34,438 nucleotides of DNA from Desulfuromonadales bacterium (lineage in GTDB: Bacteria; Desulfobacterota; Desulfuromonadia; Desulfuromonadales; BM103). Position 1 is the first letter of the stretch. Each line of letters opens with the position of its first letter. The notes under the pieces are model-generated. The model did not search any database and had not been told where the DNA came from. It saw nothing but the letters and a program-made list of their open reading frames with translations. Made by a program: the position numbers and the translations under genes. The DNA is taken from NCBI GenBank assembly GCA_027065695.1, contig JAMONP010000048.1, forward strand, positions 1-34,438. The letters run 5' to 3'. Below are positions 7,951 to 31,767 of the stretch, in pieces.

Positions 7951-8436
7951 ATGAAAGCAAAACTTGCCACATTTGTCGCGATGTTTACCTTCTGGGTCGT
8001 TCTGTCGGGCATGTTTGATGCCTTTCACCTGACCCTGGGCGTGATCTGCTGCATGTTGGTTGCTCACTTCAGTCACGATCTGCTTTTCTCCGGTGATGAT
8101 GATCAATCCTGCGTGCGGGGTCTTTTGGGCTTCGTCACCTACCTGCCCTGGCTCTTCTACCAGATCGTCATCGCTAATCTGCAGATAGCGTATGTGGTCC
8201 TGCATCCCCGTATGTTCGAACTGATCGACCCACATGTCATACGCTTCAAGACCAAACTCAAGCGGCCGATATCCAAGGTTACTTTTGCCCAATCGATCAC
8301 CCTGACTCCAGGAACGATTACCGTCAGTATCCACGATGATGAGTTTTCCGTTTATGCCCTGACCCGCAGCGCCAGTGATGCCCTGCCCGGTGAGATGGAG
8401 GCCCGTGTGGCCCGTGCGCTGGAGCCTGACCTATGA
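7951..8436 (+). CDS. mrpE: Mrp/Mnh-type cation:proton antiporter subunit E
   Basis: 161 aa. N-terminal membrane helices (about 5-45 and 60-85) and a cytoplasmic tail with the MrpE hallmark SITLTPGTITV (about 115-125). Corresponds to MbhA in archaeal membrane-bound hydrogenases. First gene of the operon; AGAGG at 7943-7947 is close to the ATG. Its stop overlaps the next start (ATGA), implying translational coupling. MrpE is a structural subunit of the multi-subunit Na+(Li+)/H+ antiporter complex. Confidence 0.92.
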   Translation: MKAKLATFVAMFTFWVVLSGMFDAFHLTLGVICCMLVAHFSHDLLFSGDDDQSCVRGLLGFVTYLPWLFYQIVIANLQIAYVVLHPRMFELIDPHVIRFKTKLKRPISKVTFAQSITLTPGTITVSIHDDEFSVYALTRSASDALPGEMEARVARALEPDL

Positions 8437-8735
8437 TGCATTCCTTCTTCCTTGCCACCGGCATTGCCATGGTCCTGTTGATGGCCCTGAGTCTGTTTCG
8501 CGCAGTGGTCGGCCCAACCATTCTTGACCGAATCCTTGGCGGCAACGTCATCGGCACCAAAACAACGGTACTGCTGCTGGTGATCGGCATGCTCTACGAT
8601 AACCTGGGGATGTTTATCGACATTGCTCTGGCCTATGCCCTGCTTAACTTCATTGCTACGCTAGGTGCCGCCAAGTTTTTCCTGCGCCAGCTCAGTGTGT
8701 TTATAGAAGACACTGAGCGGGAGGAGAGTTTATGA
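8433..8735 (+). CDS. mrpF: Mrp/Mnh-type antiporter subunit F
   Basis: 100 aa, three predicted helices. The family motif VVGPTILDRILGGNVIGTK (about 26-44) and an intramembrane Asp in MFIDIALAYALLNF (about 63-76) fit MrpF/MbhB. Small helical subunit of the Mrp complex. Overlaps both neighbours by 4 bp. Confidence 0.92.
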   Translation: MMHSFFLATGIAMVLLMALSLFRAVVGPTILDRILGGNVIGTKTTVLLLVIGMLYDNLGMFIDIALAYALLNFIATLGAAKFFLRQLSVFIEDTEREESL

Positions 8736-9082
8736 CGATCCTGTCGATTCTCACCATAATCCTGATGGTGTCAGGTCTATTCTTTTTTCTTGCCGGAACC
8801 ATTGGGCTGCTGCGACTACCGGATTTCTACTCCCGTCTGCATGCTGCTGGCAAATGCGATTCTCTGGCGGCGGTACTGATGATTGCAGGCATGGCCGCTT
8901 ACAACCTCGAAACTTTCTCTTTCGGCGCGCTTCTGGTCAGCACTAAACTATTCCTGATTGCCGCGTTTGTTTTTGTCACCAGCCCGACTGCTACCCACGC
9001 AATCACCGAGGCTGCTCTGGTGCTTGGTGTAAAACCCTGGAAACGCACAAGAGGGCGACAAGCAGGAGGGACACGTCCATGA
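8732..9082 (+). CDS. mrpG: Mrp/Mnh-type antiporter subunit G
   Basis: 116 aa, three predicted helices. The diagnostic GTIGLLRLPDFYSRLHAAGK segment (about 22-41) identifies MrpG/MbhC. The C-terminus is a short basic tail (KPWKRTRGRQ). Start and stop overlap the flanking genes by 4 bp. Confidence 0.93.
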   Translation: MTILSILTIILMVSGLFFFLAGTIGLLRLPDFYSRLHAAGKCDSLAAVLMIAGMAAYNLETFSFGALLVSTKLFLIAAFVFVTSPTATHAITEAALVLGVKPWKRTRGRQAGGTRP

Positions 9083-9324
9083 TCTGGCAAATTGACCTCA
9101 TGATCCTTACCCTGGTGGTGGTTTGCGCTCTGGTGGCAATCAACACCAAGGATCTGCTTGGCGCTACAGTTATATTCGGTATCTACAGTTTTTTGATGTG
9201 CCTGTTGTGGGCTGAAATGGGTGCCGTCGACGTAGCCTTCACTGAAGCCACCGTCGGTGCCGGTGTCAGCACTATCTTCTTTATCGCAGCTATTTTGAGA
9301 ACCACCAGAAGGAGCAAAGATTGA
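9079..9324 (+). CDS. MbhD-like (DUF4040) subunit, equivalent to part of the MrpA C-terminus
   Basis: 81 aa, three helices. The motif AEMGAVDVAFTEATVGAGVS (about 45-64) is the conserved core of DUF4040/MbhD proteins and of the equivalent helices near the end of the giant MrpA subunit; the Asp and Glu within it are the likely charged residues of the cation pathway. Here it is a separate gene, as in archaeal Mbh/Mbs clusters, rather than fused to MrpA. Its TGA overlaps the TTG start of the next gene. Confidence 0.85.
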   Translation: MIWQIDLMILTLVVVCALVAINTKDLLGATVIFGIYSFLMCLLWAEMGAVDVAFTEATVGAGVSTIFFIAAILRTTRRSKD

Positions 9325-9596
9325 AAAATTTGGCATTGCTCGCAACCCTGGTAACAGGGGCTCTGTTGCTGTACGGAACCAAGGATTTTCCGGCCTGGGG
9401 AGACCCCCGGGATCCGGCCAGCACCTACCTCTCGCCCTACTATATTGAGAAGGCCATAGAGCAGACTCATGTCCCTAATATCGTCACAGCTGTCCTCGGT
9501 GATTACCGAGGCTACGACACTATGTTTGAAACAGTGGTCATCTATTGTGCAGGCATGGCCGTGCTCAGCGTCTTGTGGAGGAAAAAGGAAGAATGA
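9321..9596 (+). CDS. MbhE-like antiporter subunit, TTG start
   Basis: 91 aa. An N-terminal helix (about 3-18), a periplasmic loop, then NIVTAVLGDYRGYDTMFETVV (about 53-73), the hallmark of MbhE-type subunits and of the last segment of MrpA. GAAGGAG at 9308-9314 fits a TTG start at 9321, and no alternative ATG keeps the first helix. Overlaps both neighbours by 4 bp. Confidence 0.83.
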   Translation: MKNLALLATLVTGALLLYGTKDFPAWGDPRDPASTYLSPYYIEKAIEQTHVPNIVTAVLGDYRGYDTMFETVVIYCAGMAVLSVLWRKKEE

Positions 9597-10060
9597 GGGA
9601 CATCAACGAACATACCGCCGGAGAAGACCTGATCATCAAGACTTCGGTGCGATTGATGGTTCCCTTTATCCAGGTGTTCGGCCTTTATGTCATCGTCCAC
9701 GGTCACTATAGTCCGGGTGGCGGCTTCCAGGGTGGCGTCATTCTCGGTGCCTCCTTCATCCTGCTGGCGTTGGCCTTTGGCATGAAAGCCTCCCAGGAAT
9801 ACATGACGGTTAGTGTTAATGCAGTGTTCAACAATCTCGGCCCGGCCATTTTTGTCGGGGTAGGGGTGCTCTGTACTCTCTTCGGCGGTCTTTTTCTCGA
9901 CTACAGCGCTCTCGACAATCTGATTCCTTTAGGGGTGGTTGAGTGGCGTTCTTTTGGTATCTTCCTGGTTGAAGTCGGGGTCGGTGTGGCAGTTATGAGC
10001 ATTATGGTGCTGCTCTACTGGAACCTCAGTTCCGGTGGTGCCATGGATGAGGGCCTCTAG
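9593..10060 (+). CDS. mrpB: Mrp/Mnh-type antiporter subunit B
   Basis: 155 aa from the ATG at 9593, which overlaps the upstream stop (ATGA) and follows GGAAAAAGGAAG; the open frame extends to 9545 only inside the upstream gene. The MrpB signature HGHYSPGGGFQGGVILGASF (about 38-57) is complete. Four helices are predicted. Equivalent to MbhF. The next gene starts two bases after the stop. Confidence 0.92.
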   Translation: MRDINEHTAGEDLIIKTSVRLMVPFIQVFGLYVIVHGHYSPGGGFQGGVILGASFILLALAFGMKASQEYMTVSVNAVFNNLGPAIFVGVGVLCTLFGGLFLDYSALDNLIPLGVVEWRSFGIFLVEVGVGVAVMSIMVLLYWNLSSGGAMDEGL

Positions 10061-10062
10061 CT

Positions 10063-10452
10063 ATGGAGGCTATAATCGGCGAAGTTGTCGCCAAATATAA
10101 CTATTGGATCTACGTTGTGCTGATGATGATCGGCTTCTACGCGATGATCGGCAAGCGCAACTTGGTCAAAAAGCTGATCGGTATGAACATCTTTCAGACC
10201 TCGATCATTCTCTTCTTCGTTTCAACCGGAGTAAAAAAGGGTGGCGGCATCCCGATTGTTGACAAGTACAAGGCGCTAGCCAGCAACATTGATGCAGCGA
10301 CCATAGTCAACCCCCTGCCGCACGTATTGATGCTGACGGCAATCGTCGTCGGTGTCAGCGTTACCGGCGTAGCTTTGGCGGTACTGCAGCGCATCTACCG
10401 GGAATACGGCACCCTCGAAGAGGATGAAATCCTGGAGAAGCTCCAGCGATGA
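10063..10452 (+). CDS. mrpC: Mrp/Mnh-type antiporter subunit C (NuoK-like)
   Basis: 129 aa, three helices. NuoK/MnhC features: RNLVKKLIGMNIFQTSIILF (about 28-47) and NPLPHVLMLTAIVVGVSVTG (about 84-103). Equivalent to MbhG and, in complex I, NuoK. It ends in an acidic tail and overlaps mrpD by 4 bp. Confidence 0.93.
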   Translation: MEAIIGEVVAKYNYWIYVVLMMIGFYAMIGKRNLVKKLIGMNIFQTSIILFFVSTGVKKGGGIPIVDKYKALASNIDAATIVNPLPHVLMLTAIVVGVSVTGVALAVLQRIYREYGTLEEDEILEKLQR

Positions 10453-11939
10453 ACGCAACCAATCTACATCTCTTCGTGCTGGTCGTGCCGCTCCTCGCGG
10501 CCCTGGCTATCAACCTGCTGGGGCGCAGATCCCGACAGTGGATCGCACCGCTGGTGCTCGGTTCTCTGGCTTTCTCCGTTTTTGGCTCGGTCATCATCAT
10601 GGCCCGTGTGGTCGAGTATGGAACCCTGCGCTACACGGTCGGCAACTGGCAACCTCCCTATGGTATCGAACTCGTCGTCGACCCTTTAAGCGCCCTGATG
10701 ATGGTGCTCATTGCTGTGGTTGCCCTGTTAGCATCCTTCTCGTCGTTGAAAAGCGTCGAACAGGAACTCCCCGGCCGGGAACATTTTTTCTTTACCCTCT
10801 ACATGATCCTGATTGTCGGTCTGTTTGGCCTGGTGTTGACCGGCGACGCTTTCAACCTCTATGTTCTGCTTGAGATCACCTCGATCACTACCTACGGCCT
10901 GATCGCCATGGGCAAAGGACGGGCAGCTCTCTCCAGCTTCAATTACATTATCATGGGCTCGATCGCCGCCTGTTTCTACCTGCTTGGCATTGGTTACATC
11001 TACATCCTCACCGGAACCTTGAACATGGCCGATATCGCCAGGATTCTGCCAACCCTGAATGCCCCGGTGGCAACGGCCACAGCGATCGCCTTTGTGCTGG
11101 TCGGCTTATGGATCAAGATGGCATTTTTCCCCCTGCACAGCTGGCTGCCCAACGCTTACAGCCAGGCACCCACCGGTGCCGGTACCCTGATTGCGCCACT
11201 GATGACCAAGGTAACGGTCTATCTGATGGTACGTGTGATAATAACCATGTACACACCAGCGCTGGTCTTTACCCACGAATGGATCGCCCGGGGTGTGGTG
11301 TGGGCTGCCTCCCTTGCAATTATCTGTGGATCAGTGCTTGCCTTGGGGCAGAAAGACCTGCGGCGCATGCTGACCTACATTATTATTGCTGAAGTTGGCT
11401 ATATGGTTGGTGGCATATTCCTGGCTAATGCCAATGGCCTGACCGGCAGCATTCTGCATATTGTCAATGACGCTTTTATGACCCTCTGTCTCTTTCTGGT
11501 TGTCGCTGCCATCATCTACCGTCAGGGCAGCGTCTCCCTGGTTTCGTTGCGAGGAATCTTTCGCCGCATGCCAATTACCATGGCGGCCTTCACACTGGGT
11601 GCTTTTGCCATGATCGGCGTACCACCGACCTGCGGCTTCTTCAGCAAATGGTATCTGATCCTTGGCGGCATAGATGGCGGTCACTGGGAATTTGTTGTCG
11701 CCCTGATTGTCAGCAGCCTGATTAACGCCGTGCTCTTCTTTCGAATTATCGAGTTGGGCTATTTCGGTTCCCTGCCAGACGGCGACAATCAGGAACACGC
11801 AATTGACGAGCGGCGTGAAGCCCCCTGGTGGATGCTCAGTCCTCTGGTCCTGACCGCGGTCATCCTTATTGTGGTGGGTTTAAGCACCGGACCGTTGGTT
11901 AACAACGTCATCCGACTGATGATTCCGGTCGGTTTTTAA
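10449..11939 (+). CDS. mrpD: Mrp-type antiporter subunit D (first NuoL/M/N-like subunit)
   Basis: 496 aa, about 14 TM helices. The key ionisable residues of antiporter-like subunits are all present: E142 in LLEITSITTYG (TM5), K223 in WIKMAFFPLHSWLPNAY (TM7), K254 in LMTKVTVYL (TM8) and the Lys of GFFSKWYLI (TM12). Corresponds to MrpD/MbhH. It moves H+ and/or Na+ across the inner membrane within the complex. A 51-bp spacer with a hairpin separates it from the next antiporter-like gene. Confidence 0.93.
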   Translation: MNATNLHLFVLVVPLLAALAINLLGRRSRQWIAPLVLGSLAFSVFGSVIIMARVVEYGTLRYTVGNWQPPYGIELVVDPLSALMMVLIAVVALLASFSSLKSVEQELPGREHFFFTLYMILIVGLFGLVLTGDAFNLYVLLEITSITTYGLIAMGKGRAALSSFNYIIMGSIAACFYLLGIGYIYILTGTLNMADIARILPTLNAPVATATAIAFVLVGLWIKMAFFPLHSWLPNAYSQAPTGAGTLIAPLMTKVTVYLMVRVIITMYTPALVFTHEWIARGVVWAASLAIICGSVLALGQKDLRRMLTYIIIAEVGYMVGGIFLANANGLTGSILHIVNDAFMTLCLFLVVAAIIYRQGSVSLVSLRGIFRRMPITMAAFTLGAFAMIGVPPTCGFFSKWYLILGGIDGGHWEFVVALIVSSLINAVLFFRIIELGYFGSLPDGDNQEHAIDERREAPWWMLSPLVLTAVILIVVGLSTGPLVNNVIRLMIPVGF

Positions 11940-11953
11940 TCCTATTTATGAGC

Positions 11954-11971
11954 CCGGGCAAGTTTGTCCGG
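11954..11971 (+). other. Intercistronic hairpin between the first two antiporter-like subunits
   Basis: CCGGGCAA (11954-11961) and TTGTCCGG (11964-11971) pair over 7-8 bp with one G-T pair and a tiny loop. No T-run follows, so it is not an intrinsic terminator; it lies 19 nt before the next ATG and could affect mRNA stability or translation. Confidence 0.45.
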
Positions 11972-11990
11972 AACCCGTTTTGAGAGAAAT

Positions 11991-13457
11991 ATGACACCGA
12001 TTGTTTCCATCTGGCCGCTGGCCGCGATCCTGGTTTCCCTGCTGGGGGCTTTGCCGATCATCCTTTCTGATCGTCACCCAAACCTGCGCGAGAGCTGGAC
12101 AATCCTGATCGCCCTGGTCAAACTGATGATCGTCGCCTCACTCTTGCCGTGGGTACTGGAAGGTGGCAGTTACGTCTTCACCATCGCCCAAGTGGTTCCG
12201 GGTGTGCCGATTGAACTGCGCGTCGATGCCCTGGGAATGATTTTTGCCCTGGTAGCCTCCTGCCTCTGGCTGTTTACGTCGATCTATTCAATTGGCTACA
12301 TGCGGGCCCTCGACGAGCACGCCCAGACCCGTTATTTTGCCTCATTTGCCGTGGCTATCTCAGCCACTATTGGTATCGCTTTTGCTGGCAACCTGCTGAC
12401 CTTGTACCTTTTCTACGAGGTTCTGTCACTCTCGACCTACCCTTTGGTCACTCATAAACAGAACGCTGAAGCCAGAACCTCAGGGCGCAAATACCTGACC
12501 TACATTCTCGGCACATCCATCGGTCTGGTACTGCCAGCCATGCTGATTACCTACTCTATCGCCGGGACTCTCGATTTCACCACTGGTGGCATTCTGGCGG
12601 GCAAGGCCTCACCGGAAATCCTGGCACTCCTGGTCGTGCTATTTTTGTTCGGTTTTGCCAAGGCAGGCTTGATGCCGTTCCATGGCTGGCTGCCGGCGGC
12701 AATGGTGGCACCAACCCCGGTCAGTTCTTTCCTGCATGGTGTGGCCGTGGTCAAGGCCGGTGTCTTCGCGATCTTCCGGGTCATTTTTCATATTCTCGGT
12801 CCCGAGACACTGCAATCTGCCGATCTTGGCTCCCTGATTACTTACATAGCCTCGGTAACCATACTGGTTGCCTCTCTGATAGCATTGACTCAAGATAGCA
12901 TGAAGCGGCGCTTAGCCTACTCGACTATAGGTCAGCTTGCTTACATGGTGCTCGGTGCCGGCATGCTCTCAGCGATAGGCATGCTCGGCGGAATCATGCA
13001 TCTGGCGATGCATGCTTTTGGCAAAATCACCCTCTTTTTCTGTGCCGGGGCGATCTATGTTGCCAGCAAGAAGAAGAATATCAGTCAGATGGATGGCCTG
13101 GGACGGCGGATGCCGATCACCTATCTGGCCTTTTTCATCGGCTCCCTGAGTATCATAGGCATGCCGCCACTGGGCGGTTTCATCAGCAAGTGGAACCTGC
13201 TGCTCGGTGCCGTCGAGGGCGACCAACTGGTCCTGATCGTTGTGCTGCTGGTTAGTTCCTTGCTTAATGCCGCCTATTTTTTCCCGATCGTCTACCGTGG
13301 CTTCTTCGTACCGGCAACGGATGGTGAAGAAGAGGGGATCAAGGAAGCACCACTCTTCTGCCTGATACCACTGTCGGTGACTGCACTGGTGTCGTTGGCC
13401 CTGTTCTTCTTCCCCGACACGCTGTTGCGACTGGCACGTATGGCGCTCGGGTCTTGA
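11991..13457 (+). CDS. Second NuoL/M/N-like antiporter subunit
   Basis: 488 aa from the ATG at 11991. The open frame reaches back to a TTG at 11964, but that lies in a hairpin and would add nine polar residues before the first membrane helix. About 14 TM helices. Key residues are intact: E143 (LFYEVLSLSTYP, TM5), K224 (FAKAGLMPFHGWLP, TM7), the TM8 Lys (GVAVVKAGVFAIFRV) and the TM12 Lys (GGFISKWNLL). Similar to MrpD/MrpA-N and complex I NuoL/M subunits. Its extra copy distinguishes this operon from a plain eight-gene Mrp module. Followed by a 62-bp gap and a small membrane protein gene. Confidence 0.9.
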   Translation: MTPIVSIWPLAAILVSLLGALPIILSDRHPNLRESWTILIALVKLMIVASLLPWVLEGGSYVFTIAQVVPGVPIELRVDALGMIFALVASCLWLFTSIYSIGYMRALDEHAQTRYFASFAVAISATIGIAFAGNLLTLYLFYEVLSLSTYPLVTHKQNAEARTSGRKYLTYILGTSIGLVLPAMLITYSIAGTLDFTTGGILAGKASPEILALLVVLFLFGFAKAGLMPFHGWLPAAMVAPTPVSSFLHGVAVVKAGVFAIFRVIFHILGPETLQSADLGSLITYIASVTILVASLIALTQDSMKRRLAYSTIGQLAYMVLGAGMLSAIGMLGGIMHLAMHAFGKITLFFCAGAIYVASKKKNISQMDGLGRRMPITYLAFFIGSLSIIGMPPLGGFISKWNLLLGAVEGDQLVLIVVLLVSSLLNAAYFFPIVYRGFFVPATDGEEEGIKEAPLFCLIPLSVTALVSLALFFFPDTLLRLARMALGS

Positions 13458-13519
13458 TGATATCTGGGGCTTTGACGGCACTGGGGAGGTTTAATGGTCT
13501 GGAGAATTTGTGAGAATTC

Positions 13520-13678
13520 ATGATGAGTACGCACGAACAAAATAACGAGCAAGATGACGCAGAAGACGGTCCGATGATCCTGGCTCACGAAGCCGTCGAA
13601 GGCTACCGGACCATCTTTTACATCTGCATTACCATCGGCACCCTCTATCTGGCCTTTGTGCTCTGGCAGACCTGGTAG
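13520..13678 (+). CDS. 52-aa single-TM protein in the antiporter operon
   Basis: Reads MMSTHEQNNEQ..., with an acidic soluble N-terminus (about 1-28) and one hydrophobic helix (about 31-50), ending in WQTW. The second ATG (13523) is an alternative start. A GTGAG 5 nt upstream is a modest ribosome site. It is on the operon strand, 62 bp after one antiporter gene and 10 bp before the next small gene. No family is recognised; by position it is probably an accessory subunit or assembly factor of the complex. Confidence 0.65.
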   Translation: MMSTHEQNNEQDDAEDGPMILAHEAVEGYRTIFYICITIGTLYLAFVLWQTW

Positions 13679-13688
13679 GAGAACGCAA

Positions 13689-13958
13689 ATGTCCAAACAT
13701 CCGATCTCGACAGATGAAGAACTGGCGATATTTGACAAACCCAAGAACGTCAAGCGCGTACTTTATAGCCTATACACCTGCGTGTTCCTGCTACTGGCAG
13801 TCGACCTCTTCTATAATAAACACGGCATATTCACTTGGGAAAGCTCTTTCGCCTTCTACTCGGTCTACGGTTTTGTTGCCTGTGTCATCCTGGTGATCAT
13901 AGCCAAGTACGTACTGCGGCCTTTAGTCATGCGTAAAGAGGATTATTATAATGATTAA
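13689..13958 (+). CDS. 89-aa two-TM protein in the antiporter operon
   Basis: Start taken at 13689, preceded by AGGAGA; the open frame to 13656 overlaps the previous gene. It has a charged N-terminus (about 1-22), two helices at about 24-40 and 53-74, and a basic/acidic tail ending DYYND. No family is confidently recognised. Its stop overlaps the next antiporter gene start by 8 bp, so translation is likely coupled, and it is probably a subunit of the same membrane complex. Confidence 0.75.
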   Translation: MSKHPISTDEELAIFDKPKNVKRVLYSLYTCVFLLLAVDLFYNKHGIFTWESSFAFYSVYGFVACVILVIIAKYVLRPLVMRKEDYYND

Positions 13959-15729
13959 TGCGTTGCCGCCAGCAGTGATCCTGATTATCGGCGGACTTCT
14001 GATCCCACTTTTCAAAGGTCGTACACGCCAGGCATTGCTCCTGCTGTTGCCGGTGGTCAGCTTCATCAACCTGCTGCAACTTCCGCACGGCAGCCTCTGG
14101 GTTTACCCGTTTTTAGGCGACCAGATCGTTCTGGCCAGAGTGGACAAACTGAGCCTGATCTTTGGCTACATCTTCCATCTGGTGGCGTTCCTCTCAGCAC
14201 TCTATGCCCTGCATGTTAAGGACTCCGTGCAGAACGTTGCTGGCACCGTCTACGCCGGGGCAGCGATAGGTGCGGTCTTCGCTGGTGACATGTTCACTCT
14301 GTTTGCCTTCTGGGAAATGCTCACCATCAGTGCCACCTTCCTGATCCTGGCACGTCGTACCGAGCGGGCTCTCAGCGCGGGTTTCCGCTACTTTATGGTG
14401 CATGTTGCCGGCGGCCTCTGTCTGCTGGCAGGAATTATCATGCACGTCTCCCAGACCGGCTCAGCTGCCTTTGACCTGATTGGCCTGGGAACAACCGCCT
14501 CATGGCTGATATTTATCGGTATCGGCGTCAACTGTGCCTGGCCGTTTCTGCACCCCTGGTTGACTGACTCTTACCCTGAGGCGACCATCACCGGCACCAT
14601 TTTCCTCTCGGCGTTCACCACCAAGACAGCAATCTATGCTCTGGCCCGGGCCTTTCCCGGTACCGAGGAGTTAATCTTCATCGGCGGAGCTATGGCAGCT
14701 TTCCCGATCTTCTATGCTGTTATCGAAAATGACCTGCGACGAGTTCTGGCCTACAGCCTGATCAACCAGGTCGGCTTCATGGTGGTCGGTATCGGCATCG
14801 GCACGGCCCTCTCTATTAACGGTGCAGTCGCCCACGCCTTCAACGACCTGCTCTTCAAGGGGCTGCTCTTTATGACCATGGGCGCAGTCATGTATCGCAC
14901 CGGTAAGATTAACGCCACCGACCTCGGCGGCCTTTATAAATCAATGCCCTGGACTTGCGGCTTCTGCATAGTCGGTGCGGCCTCGATCTCGGCCTTTCCG
15001 CTTTTTTCCGGCTTCGTCAGTAAATCGATGGTCATGGAGGCCGCGGCCCTTGGTGACATGCGCTGGCTCTGGTTTGTCCTGCTGTTTGCCTCGGCCGGGG
15101 TTTTTCACCATGCCGGCATCAAGATCCCCTTCTTCGCTTTCTTCTCGCACGACTCCGGCATACGCTGTAAAGAAGCACCACCACATATGTTGCTGGCCAT
15201 GGGTATTTCGGCAGTGCTCTGTATTCTGATCGGCAGCTTCCCGCAATACCTTTACAGTCTTCTGCCTTACGCCACCGACTATCAGCCCTACTCGATCAGT
15301 CACGTACTCTCGCAGTCCCAGTTGCTGGTCTTCTCGGCTCTGGCCTTCACCCTGCTGCTGCTGGCCGGTATCTACCCGGCGGAGATTCGTTCGGTCAATG
15401 TTGATGCCGATTGGTTTTATCGCAAAGGCGGTCGCCAGATTTACCGTTTCTGCAAGTGGGCTTTCAATGGTATCAACGATTGGGCGGATCGGGTTTTTGT
15501 CCAGCAGTTTACTAAGCTCCTGGCCCAGTTCTTCGAAGAACCTGGCAGCAACCTCCAGAAGCATGGCTACCGGCTTTTGGTTGAAGCCACGGGCATTGAT
15601 GATCATCAGGAGCAGGTCATTGAACAGATCGATCGTCGCAGTCGCAGTGCGGCCTATCCGGTCGGTGTCGGGGTTTTGCTGGCCGTCATGCTTCTCGCCC
15701 TGGTCTCTCTGCTGCTTTACCTCAGGTAG
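13951..15729 (+). CDS. Third NuoL/M/N-like antiporter subunit, lacking the TM7 lysine
   Basis: 592 aa: an antiporter-like core of about 14 helices plus a C-terminal extension (about 490-592) with an amphipathic stretch and a final TM helix (about 570-590), reminiscent of NuoL-type tails. E122 (FWEMLTISATF, TM5), K225 (AFTTKTAIYA, TM8) and the TM12-type Lys (SGFVSKSMVM) are present. The TM7 Lys, five residues before P-F in the two paralogues, is replaced by V193 (N194 adjacent) in GIGVNCAWPFLHPWL. It may therefore be a modified or structural subunit. The start overlaps the previous gene; the stop overlaps a hairpin. Confidence 0.88.
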   Translation: MINALPPAVILIIGGLLIPLFKGRTRQALLLLLPVVSFINLLQLPHGSLWVYPFLGDQIVLARVDKLSLIFGYIFHLVAFLSALYALHVKDSVQNVAGTVYAGAAIGAVFAGDMFTLFAFWEMLTISATFLILARRTERALSAGFRYFMVHVAGGLCLLAGIIMHVSQTGSAAFDLIGLGTTASWLIFIGIGVNCAWPFLHPWLTDSYPEATITGTIFLSAFTTKTAIYALARAFPGTEELIFIGGAMAAFPIFYAVIENDLRRVLAYSLINQVGFMVVGIGIGTALSINGAVAHAFNDLLFKGLLFMTMGAVMYRTGKINATDLGGLYKSMPWTCGFCIVGAASISAFPLFSGFVSKSMVMEAAALGDMRWLWFVLLFASAGVFHHAGIKIPFFAFFSHDSGIRCKEAPPHMLLAMGISAVLCILIGSFPQYLYSLLPYATDYQPYSISHVLSQSQLLVFSALAFTLLLLAGIYPAEIRSVNVDADWFYRKGGRQIYRFCKWAFNGINDWADRVFVQQFTKLLAQFFEEPGSNLQKHGYRLLVEATGIDDHQEQVIEQIDRRSRSAAYPVGVGVLLAVMLLALVSLLLYLR

Positions 15730-28188: not shown

Positions 28189-31100
28189 ATGTCCAAGAAA
28201 ATGGTCTGTATTGACGGCAATACCGCCGCTGCGCATGTAGCTCATGCAACCAATGAGGTGATTGCTATCTACCCGATCACGCCCTCTTCAGTAATGGGCG
28301 AGATATCCGATGCCAAAAGCGCCATGGGGCAAAAAAACATCTGGGGAACCATCCCCAAGGTGGTAGAGATGCAGTCAGAAGGCGGCGCGGCCGGAGCCGT
28401 TCACGGGGCCTTGCAAGCTGGAGCTCTGACGACAACCTTCACCGCATCTCAGGGTCTGCTACTGATGATCCCGAATATGTTCAAAATTGCCGGTGAATTG
28501 ACGCCGACGGTTTTCCATGTTTCGGCCCGCGCAATTGCCGCCCAGGCACTATCGATCTTTGGCGACCATTCCGACGTTATGACCTGCACTTCTACAGGCT
28601 GGGCATTTCTCTGCTCAAACAATGTTCAGGAAGTCATGGACTTCGCGTTGATCGCCCAGGCCGCAACGCTTGAATCGCGCATTCCCTTCCTGCATTACTT
28701 TGACGGCTTCCGGACTTCGAGTGAAGTACAGAAAGTCCATGAGCTCTCCGAAAACGACATGCGGTTCATGATCAACAACGAACTCACCAAAGCCCACCGC
28801 GCCCGTGCCCTGTCACCTGACCATCCAGTCCTGCGCGGCACAGCGCAGAACCCGGATGTTTTCTTCCAGGGACGCGAGACGGTTAACCCATACTATGACA
28901 AGATCGCCGGCATTCTTCAGGCCCAGTTTGACAAGTTCGCCCAACAGACCGGCCGTCAGTACAACCTGTTCGATTATGTTGGTGCCCCGGATGCTGAGCG
29001 CGTCGTGGTGATGATGGGTTCCGGTTGTGACACCATGCATGAGCTGGTTGAGCACCTGGTCTCGCAGGGCGAGAAGGTCGGCCTGATCAAGGTTCGCTTC
29101 TTCCTGCCATTCGATGTTGCTGCTTTCGCCAAAGTACTGCCGAATACGGTCAGAAAGATTGCCGTGCTCGACCGCACCAAAGAACCTGGTTCTATCGGCG
29201 AACCGCTCTACCACAATGTTCGTACCGCCTTTGGCGAAGCGATGAGTGACGGCCTGGTGTCCTTCCAGGGCTATCCAAGTATTGTCGGTGCACGCTACGG
29301 CCTCGGCTCTTACGAATTCTCGCCCGGCATGGCCAAGGCGGTGCTTGACAACCTGTCAAAAGACAAGCCAATGAACCACTGCGTAGTCGGTATCAAGGAT
29401 GATGTTACCGGTCGCAGTCTCGATTTCGAGGCTGACTACAAGGTGCCTTTCGACGGCTACTCGGCTATGTTTTACGGTCTCGGTGCAGACGGTACGGTCG
29501 GCGCTAACAAGAACTCGATCAAGATCATCGGTGACGCCACCGACAACGAAGTACAAGCTTACTTTGTCTATGATTCCAAGAAGGCCGGCAGCATGACCAC
29601 CAGTCATCTGCGCTTCGGCAAGAAAGTGATTCGTGCGCCCTACCTGATCACCACCTCAGACTTTGTCGCCTGTCATAACTTCTCTTTCCTGGAGAAATAC
29701 GACATGTTGAAAAACGCTAAACAGGGTGCTACTTTCCTGCTTAACAGCCCGTTCAACAAAGACGAAGTCTGGCCACATCTGCCGAAATCAGTCCAACAGG
29801 CCATTATCGACAAACAGCTCAAGTTTTTCGTCATCGACGGCGTGAAGCTTGGCAACGAAATCGGCCTGGGCTCCCGCATAAACGTCATCATGCAGACTGC
29901 TTTCTTCAAGATCTCCGACATCATCTCCCTAGATCTTGCTGTCCGTGAGATCAAGGACGCCATCGTCAAGTCTTACAGCAAGGCTGGTGAGAAAGTCGTT
30001 AACATGAACAACCAGGCGGTCGATGTCGCCTTGGAGAACATTGAGGAAGTCACTGTCCCGGCCAGTGCCGACAGCAGTATTACAATGACCATCGGACAAT
30101 GGTCCGGCACTCCAGAAACAGTGCAGAAAACCCTCGGACCGATCATCGATGGTCTCGGTGAGAACCTGCCGGTCTCAGCCATGCCAGTTGATGGCACCTT
30201 CCCGACCGCGACAGCAATGTACGAGAAGCGTAACATCGCCATCGAGAGTCCGGTCTGGGATGAAAAGCTCTGTATCCAGTGTGGCATCTGTTCGTTCGTC
30301 TGCCCGCATGCCACTATGCGCATGAAGATCTACGACGAAAAAGATCTTGGGGAAGCACCTGAGACTTTCAAGTCTTGTGCAGCCAAGGGCAAGGGTATGG
30401 AAGGCAAGCTCTTCACTCTGCAGGTAGCTGTGGAAGATTGCACTGGCTGCGGTGCCTGTGTCCATAACTGCCCGGTAAAAAGCAAGGACGACGAGAGCCA
30501 TAAGGCGATCAACATGCAGCCACAACCACCGCTGCGTGAGACCGAATCCAAGAACTTCGACTTCTTCCTCAATCTGCCTGATACTGACCCGGCTCTGATT
30601 AACACTGCCACGCTCAAGGGCAGCCAGTTCTTGCCACCTATGTTCGAATTCTCCGGTGCTTGTGCCGGTTGTGGCGAGACTCCGTTTGTCAAACTCTGCT
30701 CGCAACTTTTCGGTGACCGCATGGTAGTCGCCAACGCAACTGGTTGTTCGTCGATCTATGGCGGCAACCTGCCAACGACCCCCTGGACCACACGCAAAGA
30801 CGGTCTCGGTCCGGCATGGAGCAACTCGCTCTTTGAGGATAACGCCGAGTTCGGTTTCGGCTTCCGACTCGCCATTGACAAAACCAATGAATACGCGCGC
30901 GAATTGCTGGTCAAAAGCATGGCCTGCGGTTGTGTAGCATGCAAAGGCAGCAGTGAGCTGAAGCAGGCTATTCTCGATGCTGATCAGTCGTCCCAGGCCC
31001 TGATCGAAGAACAACGTGGCCGGGTCAAGCAGCTCAAAGCGATTCTCGCCAAGTGTAGCCACGAGACCGCACCACAGCTACTTGCTGATGCCGACTATCT

Positions 31101-31767
31101 TGTTACCAAGTCAGTCTGGATTCACGGTGGAGACGGCTGGGCTTACGATATCGGTTACGGCGGCCTTGACCATGTACTGGCCACCGGTGCCAATGTCAAT
31201 GTGCTGGTACTCGACACAGAGGTCTACTCAAACACAGGTGGACAGGCCTCCAAGGCAACCCCAATGGCAGCCGTGGCGCAGTTTGCTGCCGGTGGTAAAG
31301 CACAACCAAAGAAAGACCTCTCGATGATCGCCATGACCTACGGCAACATCTACGTTGCCAGGGTCTCGATGGCCAACCCTGGCCAGGTGGTCAAGGCAAT
31401 GCTTGAAGCCGATGCCTACGACGGTCCGTCGTTGATCATTGCCTACTCGCACTGCATCGCCCATGGTATCGACATGGCGAGCGCTGTGGATAACTGCAAG
31501 CGGGCTGTCAACTCCGGTTACTGGCCACTGTTCCGTTTCGATCCTCGCTTGGCCAAGGAAGGCAAAAATCCGTTGCAGCTCGACAGCAAGGCACCGTCGA
31601 TCAGCTTCAAAGATTTTGCCAACCAGGAAAATCGTTTCCGCGTGCTCAAGAAGAATAACCCTGAGAATGCCGAAGCATTGATGGATGCCTCCGCCAAGGA
31701 CGCAGCCAACCGCTACGATCTCTACAAAAAACTGGCGGAGATGTCGGCAGACTGCGGTACAAAGTAA
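28189..31767 (+). CDS. nifJ: Pyruvate:ferredoxin (flavodoxin) oxidoreductase, single-chain
   Basis: 1192 aa, typical of the homodimeric enzyme. Domain order: N-terminal pyrimidine-binding and CoA domains (YPITPSSVMGE; FGDHSDVM; LDRTKEPGSIGEPLY), gamma-type domain (about 420-630), a two-[4Fe-4S] ferredoxin domain (C695/C698/C701/C705 and C751/C754/C757/C761), then the TPP domain with the third-cluster cysteines (C825, C828 in CAGCGE) and GDGWAYDIGYGGLDHVLATG...DTEVYSNTGGQ. It converts pyruvate and CoA to acetyl-CoA, CO2 and reduced ferredoxin, or the reverse. A strong AAGGAGGAG precedes the ATG; a strong terminator follows. Monocistronic. Confidence 0.97.
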   Translation: MSKKMVCIDGNTAAAHVAHATNEVIAIYPITPSSVMGEISDAKSAMGQKNIWGTIPKVVEMQSEGGAAGAVHGALQAGALTTTFTASQGLLLMIPNMFKIAGELTPTVFHVSARAIAAQALSIFGDHSDVMTCTSTGWAFLCSNNVQEVMDFALIAQAATLESRIPFLHYFDGFRTSSEVQKVHELSENDMRFMINNELTKAHRARALSPDHPVLRGTAQNPDVFFQGRETVNPYYDKIAGILQAQFDKFAQQTGRQYNLFDYVGAPDAERVVVMMGSGCDTMHELVEHLVSQGEKVGLIKVRFFLPFDVAAFAKVLPNTVRKIAVLDRTKEPGSIGEPLYHNVRTAFGEAMSDGLVSFQGYPSIVGARYGLGSYEFSPGMAKAVLDNLSKDKPMNHCVVGIKDDVTGRSLDFEADYKVPFDGYSAMFYGLGADGTVGANKNSIKIIGDATDNEVQAYFVYDSKKAGSMTTSHLRFGKKVIRAPYLITTSDFVACHNFSFLEKYDMLKNAKQGATFLLNSPFNKDEVWPHLPKSVQQAIIDKQLKFFVIDGVKLGNEIGLGSRINVIMQTAFFKISDIISLDLAVREIKDAIVKSYSKAGEKVVNMNNQAVDVALENIEEVTVPASADSSITMTIGQWSGTPETVQKTLGPIIDGLGENLPVSAMPVDGTFPTATAMYEKRNIAIESPVWDEKLCIQCGICSFVCPHATMRMKIYDEKDLGEAPETFKSCAAKGKGMEGKLFTLQVAVEDCTGCGACVHNCPVKSKDDESHKAINMQPQPPLRETESKNFDFFLNLPDTDPALINTATLKGSQFLPPMFEFSGACAGCGETPFVKLCSQLFGDRMVVANATGCSSIYGGNLPTTPWTTRKDGLGPAWSNSLFEDNAEFGFGFRLAIDKTNEYARELLVKSMACGCVACKGSSELKQAILDADQSSQALIEEQRGRVKQLKAILAKCSHETAPQLLADADYLVTKSVWIHGGDGWAYDIGYGGLDHVLATGANVNVLVLDTEVYSNTGGQASKATPMAAVAQFAAGGKAQPKKDLSMIAMTYGNIYVARVSMANPGQVVKAMLEADAYDGPSLIIAYSHCIAHGIDMASAVDNCKRAVNSGYWPLFRFDPRLAKEGKNPLQLDSKAPSISFKDFANQENRFRVLKKNNPENAEALMDASAKDAANRYDLYKKLAEMSADCGTK

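Follow-up and report, generated by a model that had tools for sequence, protein, structure and literature searches.

A twelve-gene Mrp-type cluster with three antiporter-like subunits in a Desulfuromonadales bacterium, and its subunit cassette in common with complex I

The stretch of DNA analysed here, hereafter the window, comprises positions 1 to 34,438 (forward strand) of contig JAMONP010000048.1 from a Desulfuromonadales bacterium (assembly GCA_027065695.1). At 7951-15729 it carries twelve tightly spaced genes, all on the + strand, in which the small subunits of Mrp cation/proton antiporters are followed by three antiporter-like proteins, named here D1, D2 and D3, together with two small proteins, s52 and s88. 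As judged from the sequence, the cluster probably encodes a group-3 cation/H+ antiporter of the Mrp type that stands alone, with three subunits in its proton arm and no redox arm; furthermore, homologues of D2, s88 and D3 are present in operons of complex I. The start codons of MrpB (9593), D2 (11991) and s88 (13689) were refined, and the features are as follows.

7951..8436, + strand: MrpE, 161 aa; PF01899, 107 bits.
8433..8735, + strand: MrpF, 100 aa; PF04066.
8732..9082, + strand: MrpG, 116 aa; PF03334; TIGR01300, 81.3 bits (cut-off 63.1).
9079..9324, + strand: MbhD, part of the MrpA C-terminal domain, 81 aa; PF13244.
9321..9596, + strand: MbhE, part of the MrpA C-terminal domain, 91 aa, TTG start; PF20501.
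9593..10060, + strand: MrpB/MbhF, 155 aa; PF04039, 98 bits; start refined.
10063..10452, + strand: MrpC, NuoK-like, 129 aa; PF00420; NF005621 above cut-off.
10449..11939, + strand: D1, first antiporter-like subunit, in the MrpD/MbhH/MbsH position, 496 aa; PF00361, 178 bits.
11991..13457, + strand: D2, second antiporter-like subunit, 488 aa; PF00361, 213 bits; NF006236, 649 bits, just below the cut-off of 663.
13520..13678, + strand: s52, one-helix protein, 52 aa; no family.
13689..13958, + strand: s88, two-helix protein with a KEDYY-type tail, between D2 and D3, 89 aa; no family.
13951..15729, + strand: D3, third antiporter-like subunit with a NuoL/MrpA-N-like fold, 592 aa; NF009310, 754 bits (cut-off 564).

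The order E-F-G-MbhD-MbhE-B-C-D with split MbhD and MbhE, proposed in an initial annotation made from the sequence alone, was confirmed, as were two extra NuoL/M/N-like subunits (PF00361) and two small membrane proteins, for which hydropathy predicts one helix in s52 and two in s88. Ten of the twelve products exceeded the curated Pfam cut-off (MNHE, MrpF_PhaF, PhaG_MnhG, MbhD, MbhE, MnhB, Oxidored_q2 and three Proton_antipo_M), so that MrpB, C, D, E, F and G are all encoded in one cluster; no Pfam or NCBIfam family was matched by s52 or s88 of the window. An open reading frame (ORF) of MrpA length was not found in the cluster; three separate antiporter-like proteins are present instead, and the 5' end of the D3 gene overlaps the 3' end of s88. 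Absent from the twelve genes are NuoB, C, D, H, I, J, K, M and N, and so is the J-N type hydrogenase-like arm of membrane-bound hydrogenase (MBH) and membrane-bound sulfane reductase (MBS). Compared with L082, the closest relative found (deltaproteobacterium IMCC39146), all twelve genes are under purifying selection, with ratios of nonsynonymous to synonymous substitution rates of 0.039 to 0.222 (0.039-0.080 for the ten Pfam-family genes, 0.161 for s52 and 0.222 for s88). These low ratios suggest that the genes are real.

Group 3 Mrp has been described as lacking mrpA and having mrpD only, sometimes in several copies (PMC8415708). The assignment of the cluster to a stand-alone antiporter of this kind is based on the presence of Mrp E, F, G, B and C with split C-terminal parts of MrpA, on key residues kept in them, on searches of the genome that found neither a group-4 hydrogenase nor an orphan redox arm, on the recurrence of the gene set at 72 of 120 loci, and on a D3 tail that is of the complex I type in none of the 72 Mrp clusters. 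Of the two options in the initial annotation, a stand-alone antiporter unusually rich in ion channels is the one that these data support.

Essential residues are kept in the MrpA C-terminal domain (MbhD and MbhE), MrpE and MrpF. T119-P120 of MrpE align to T113-P114 of Bacillus pseudofirmus MrpE (7qru_E), and D32-R33 of MrpF to the residues of the same numbers in its MrpF (7qru_F). E56 of MbhD aligns to E69 of MbhD in 6cfw_D, described as the homologue of MrpA E706 (PMC7419157), and D66 and E70 of MbhE to D792 and E796 of Anoxybacillus flavithermus MrpA (6z16_A); R63 of MbhE pairs with R773 of B. pseudofirmus MrpA through the equal-length range 37-85/747-795. According to PMC5703873 and PMC7419157, mutation of equivalents of these residues in characterised Mrp abolishes or disturbs activity. 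It should be added that the best PDB matches for E, F, MbhD, MbhE and C are MBS/MBH counterparts, those for MrpC being MbsG and MbhG.

A D3-family search across the phylum placed 88 of 198 genomes above the cut-off and none of the 14 control genomes; at E up to 0.001, matches were obtained in 178 of 198 and 13 of 14, respectively, as expected for a superfamily. The 120 loci compared consisted of 37 from the phylum search, 80 from a contig scan, two rhizobial plasmid loci and the window. Loci were typed by three of E, F, G, B and D1, or by two of six Nuo genes, on the D3 strand. Among the 37 phylum-search stretches (36 around an above-cut-off match), 14 were Mrp-type, 21 complex-I-type, one partial and one without D3. 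The contig scan gave at least 585 matches, of which the 80 best were used; these are biased toward the window type, so that the ratio of Mrp to complex I clusters should not be taken for a natural frequency.

Of the 120 loci, 119 yielded a D3: 72 are Mrp-type, 24 are complex-I-type and 23 are too short for typing. Recurrence of the gene order in related genomes, suggested initially as a check, was borne out by the 72 Mrp-type loci, where the gene set follows mostly the order of the window; B stands first in L048, L057 and L069, the E, F and G genes are permuted in L138, L151, L155 and L160, and at many loci separate matches were not obtained for both MbhD and MbhE. Records of these loci include ones labelled Thermodesulfobacteriota, Nitrospirota, Verrucomicrobiota, Planctomycetota, Pseudomonadota, Gemmatimonadota, Latescibacterota, Acidobacteriota and Myxococcota; the three-pump Mrp gene set is widespread in bacteria. 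In a Brocadiaceae record (L099:12273-17920), a three-pump Mrp cluster is followed immediately by an apparently canonical MrpA-B-C-D-E-F-G cluster.

The relationships of the antiporter-like subunits were assessed in a tree of 105 rows from 16 Mrp-type and 10 complex-I-type loci, picked by hand, together with the window and reference NuoL, M, N, MrpA, MrpD, MbhH, MbsH and MbsH'. Both this tree and the 95-locus cassette tree described below are quick trees with Shimodaira-Hasegawa-like approximate likelihood ratio (SH-aLRT) support only. Placement of all subunits in ordinary MrpA or MrpD groups, named initially as the outcome that would speak against an unusual complex, was not observed; D1, D2 and D3 form one clade each (support 100), none of them inside the MrpA or MrpD reference clades. 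The D1 clade falls outside that of MrpD, and D2 is sister to NuoL plus MrpA (support 91). D3 is set apart, adjoined by MbsH' only (support 87), a placement on a long branch that may be false. Two Mrp clusters have a fourth antiporter-like subunit directly 3' of D3 (L137:11724-13274, a Desulfobacterales record, and L143:11763-13295, a Desulfobacula record), and these form their own clade in the same tree.

In PMC7419157, Mrp is described as having a cation module and, linked to it through charges, a proton arm made of antiporter-like subunits; the lysines of transmembrane helices (TM) 7 and 12 are called absolutely conserved and essential there. In the window, the key charges that were examined are present in D1 and D2: D1 has the TM5 Glu and the TM7, TM8 and TM12 Lys, and D2 keeps the TM5 Glu and the TM7 Lys; the TM7 position is Lys in 74 of 74 D1 and in 106 of 109 D2 sequences (two gaps, one Thr). 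D3 of the window has N194 in place of the TM7 Lys and keeps the TM5 Glu and the Lys of TM8 and TM12. Across the 119 loci this position is Asn in 75 and Lys in 44, Asn being found in all 24 complex-I-type, 38 of 72 Mrp-type (window included) and 13 of 23 untyped loci. The difference amounts to one change on the 95-locus cassette tree, with the 34 Lys rows all on one side of a branch with support 100. Asn as an invariant of D3, which had held in a first alignment of 35 sequences, was rejected on the larger set. A weak D3-like match in L077, outside the 119, has Ser there. The AlphaFold2 (AF2) model of D3 (predicted local distance difference test, pLDDT, 87) matches NuoL and the N-terminal part of MrpA about equally (Z about 44, within 1), with Z 43.6 and a root-mean-square deviation of 2.2 over 490 residues for B. 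pseudofirmus MrpA (7qru_A); only Foldseek top chains were re-aligned, and a fold missing among them is uninformative.

Several observations weigh against the stand-alone antiporter reading. Against a simple assignment to Na+, MrpC has Q, T and I where Mrp has S36, H37 and H40, and its Q and I occupy the positions of MBH D37 and H41; N42, which matches MBH N34, is the sole match among the MBH site residues compared (roles of these residues after PMC7419157). As the site differs from both Mrp and MBH, ion specificity is uncertain; S36, H37 and H40 are not taken as defining group 3, since MBH also differs from Mrp there. Seven of the ten proteins scanned fall below every NCBIfam curated cut-off, which only G, C and D3 reach. 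AF2 models the tail of D3 (about residues 471-592) with low confidence, and the lateral helix is therefore not established. Moreover, the TM7 Lys is also missing in HycC (Leu208) and in MbsH, where E219 replaces it and which is nevertheless proposed to pump (PMC9474812, PMC7684303); Asn in D3 thus need not mean that pumping is lost.

The MrpC residues and the missing TM7 Lys of D3 would also suit a Mrp-type machine that carries K+ or Ca2+ or serves bicarbonate/CO2 uptake, and whose extra subunits are adapted to that cargo. Mrp with Ca2+/H+ activity is mentioned in PMC5703873, and the Mrp region of 'Candidatus (Ca.) Nitrospira alkalitolerans' also has BicA and NhaB (PMC7784846). However, the Na+ path equivalents of E706, D792 and E796 are kept, and neither a bicarbonate transporter nor carbonic anhydrase was found among ten other window proteins scanned with Pfam, the remaining window ORFs being unscanned. 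We consider such a cargo unlikely.

The small protein s88 accompanies D3 at 118 of 119 loci, and the record of the sole exception (L122) starts about 40 bases before its D3 match. With D3 reading frames counted stop to stop, 116 of 120 s88 matches lie within 200 nt of D3 and the other four 211 to 292 nt off. The consensus of s88 has EDYYd at its end, and the AF2 model is a hairpin of two helices (pLDDT 79). In a scan of 41 s88 proteins, any given Pfam or NCBIfam family was matched by one of them at most. By contrast with this near-constant presence, s52 was found at 37 of 119 D3 loci and is optional in the gene set. Homology of either protein to nine known Mrp or Nuo subunit families was rejected after profile comparison (probability of at most 2.5% for s88 and 0.5% for s52); s52 against s88 gave 10.2%. 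At L069:3995-9771 the order is D2-s88-D3-s88-D3, with the s88-D3 pair twice in tandem.

A homologous D2-s88-D3 cassette is present at the 24 complex-I-type loci. L049 has the order NuoB, C, D, H, J, K, D2, D3, NuoM, NuoN, with s88 between D2 and D3, and the best NCBIfam models of its D2 and D3 are those of D2 and D3 of the window. In Sinorhizobium meliloti the annotated order is NuoJ, NuoK, D2, hypothetical protein, D3, NuoM, NuoN, A, B, C, D, E, F, G, where the intervening 'hypothetical protein' is s88-type. These arrangements fit the 'green complex I', described as having two MrpD-like subunits in place of NuoL (PMC9040806; also PMC7415380). A record titled Euryarchaeota archaeon (L144:2673-4485) holds a complex-I-type cassette of two D2-like pieces, s52, s88 and D3.

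A cassette tree was calculated from D2 and D3 without its tail for the 95 loci passing a length filter, at which one complex-I-type locus was dropped. The Mrp and complex I labels need four changes on this tree, and the starred branches alone force four. The Mrp locus L053 is nested in a complex I clade that contains L052 of the same genome; the Mrp loci L046 and L073 group with two rhizobial complexes (support 97). Constraining the complex I rows together was rejected (approximately unbiased test, p 2.7e-87). A NuoL-like D3 tail was found in none of the 72 Mrp-type loci (window included) versus 20 of 23 complex-I-type loci; the pattern defining such a tail was made broader once exceptions had been seen, which raised the latter count from 17 to 20 and left the former at zero. 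On average, the tail matches the complex type in 3.6 of four independent pairs, too few for significance (p 0.125). Length of the lateral helix as a measure of subunit count was tried and rejected, the tail medians being 101 aa (Mrp) and 99 aa (complex I) with no lengthening.

Bacteria appear to swap D2-s88-D3 between two different ion-moving machines. We tentatively put forward, as a possibility that falls somewhat short of an even chance, that the cassette is exchangeable and has moved repeatedly between Mrp and complex I with the tail of D3 adapting, that s88 is an obligatory subunit, and that D3 of the window, having no TM7 Lys, moves ions differently or not at all. The behaviour of the cassette as an evolutionary unit of its own might also suggest that D2, s88 and D3 form a separate complex, merely sharing an operon with an eight-gene EFG-MbhD-MbhE-B-C-D Mrp as in Pyrococcus furiosus, where a stand-alone mrpEFGBB'CD without a MrpA homologue is described (PMC8415708). 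Yet D2 and D3 replace NuoL in the complex I operons, where they are most naturally placed at the end of the membrane arm, and D2, s88 and D3 follow D1 at nearly all complete Mrp-type loci. We consider a separate complex very unlikely.

The same cassettes in complex I operons bear on the second option of the initial annotation, by which the cluster would be the membrane arm of a redox-driven complex with its catalytic arm, ferredoxin- or NADH-oxidising, encoded elsewhere. The genome (3.39 Mb, 108 contigs, 99.95% complete) offers a candidate in the truncated NuoABCDEFG on contig C42, a second complex I whose run NuoA-BCD-E-F-G, with a fused NuoBCD, has no visible H-N and is cut inside NuoG by the contig end (L040:4558-11608); there is one NuoH only in the genome. 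However, the equivalent NuoA-G run continues into H, I, J, K, L, M and N in L173 and L174, of the same order as the source genome, and in L175, of the same family (a fourth stretch, L176, is itself cut by a contig end), and with relatives continuing in this way the missing part of C42 is most likely an assembly gap rather than a sign of an orphan arm. A full 14-gene complex I operon including NuoL lies on C60, and the two NuoD-type proteins matching PF00346 both belong to complex I operons. The six PF00361 matches in the genome are NuoL, M and N of C60 and D1-D3. A single protein matched the hydrogenase family PF00374 (a 571-aa frame on C98), and the PF00346 and PF00374 searches found no group-4 hydrogenase large subunit in the genome; the absence of hydrogenase subunits from the twelve genes, observed initially, agrees with these searches.

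Redox-type matches at the 72 Mrp-type loci, obtained with Nuo queries only, without hydrogenase queries and within the stretches compared, are confined to a NuoG-like one in L055 and an opposite-strand one in L137; the further matches of NuoK/L/M/N type in L155 are to membrane subunits. Furthermore, D3 of the window has a Mrp-type tail. We consider a redox arm encoded elsewhere highly improbable. Two PF02508 (Rnf/Nqr-type) membrane subunits are present at C60:161-703 and C17:42387-42944, possibly from one cluster split by assembly, and make a sodium-cycle partner possible.

As a stand-alone antiporter, the twelve products would form one complex in which protons enter and a monovalent cation, most likely Na+, is driven out. 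In the membrane, the cation module (E, F, G, B, MbhD and MbhE) would be followed by C, D1, D2 and D3, with D1 in the place of MrpD and D2-s88-D3 standing in for the missing N-terminal half of MrpA. D3 is predicted to be distal, and s88 may act as a helical hairpin beside D3 or at the contact of D2 and D3. Because of the Asn in place of the TM7 Lys, D3 of the window is expected to be a distal spacer or a gating or modified-pump subunit, not a regular third proton pump. A stoichiometry close to 2 H+ per Na+ would be expected here, and versions with a Lys-bearing D3 could reach 3.

Comparison with described systems delimits what is new. The P. furiosus mrpEFGBB'CD, also of group 3, has the same E-F-G-(MbhD/MbhE)-B-C-D order and lacks both mrpA and a redox module (PMC8415708); the window differs in having separate MbhD and MbhE, and in D2, s52, s88 and D3. 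Group 1 Mrp (MrpABCDEFG, e.g. of B. pseudofirmus) has the same functional modules, and the fold of D3 is like the N-terminal part of its MrpA, but in the window MrpA is not one protein and the proton arm has three subunits, not two. In P. furiosus MBS a second antiporter-like subunit, MbsH', is present; unlike MBS and MBH, the window has no J-N hydrogenase-like arm and has three antiporter-like subunits, not one or two. The green complex I of S. meliloti shares with the window the homologues of D2 and D3 with a s88-type protein between them, but is built of NuoA-K, M, N and a redox arm without the E, F, G, B and MbhD/E module. In 'Ca. Manganitrophus', two MrpD-like subunits are known from a terminal-oxidase complex.

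Also among the closest systems are those of 'Ca. Nitrospira alkalitolerans' and Nitrospirales lineage IV, for which mrp with two nuoM/nuoL-like genes has been described and read as having extra mrpA/mrpD-like genes (PMC7784846, PMC12342949); supplementary figures aside, these accounts name no intervening small protein and no link to complex I. Five Nitrospirota loci (L086, L087, L088, L094 and L098) have the same gene set as the window. As for prior description, raised in the initial annotation as a possible objection, a Mrp with two extra nuoM/nuoL-like genes has thus been mentioned in print. Already known are group-3 Mrp without mrpA, extra nuoL/M-like genes beside Nitrospira Mrp, and two MrpD-like subunits in complex I. 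No published account of D2-s88-D3 serving both machines, of s88 or of the D3 Asn was found in the accessible literature, with most subscription papers, among them Chadwick et al. 2018 and the first description of green complex I, beyond reach.

Complex I is thought to have arisen from a Mrp-like antiporter. Cassette exchange, if true, would make its modular evolution testable at the bench, as homologous pumps could be compared in machines that have a redox engine and in machines that lack one. Whether every antiporter-like subunit must carry a proton could be tested directly on the Lys/Asn difference that occurs naturally in D3, and s88, standing beside D3 at nearly every locus and yet without a Pfam or NCBIfam family, is an easy target.

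The initial annotation also suggested that ferredoxin reduced by a nearby NifJ might feed the complex. A NifJ-type pyruvate:ferredoxin oxidoreductase (1192 aa) is indeed present in the window at 28189-31767, but lies 12.5 kb downstream of the cluster, behind HemW, HrcA and DnaK. No tblastn match to it at 1e-20 was obtained in 119 related loci, each with a flank of about 10 kb at most, and this link was not supported; L082 cannot decide on it, given the 12.5 kb distance in the window. The CN hydrolase gene 5' of the cluster is also present in L082, L043 and L159, and HemW, HrcA and DnaK 3' of it in L082, L043, L139 and L159; these common flanking genes fit vertical descent of the cluster in this lineage.

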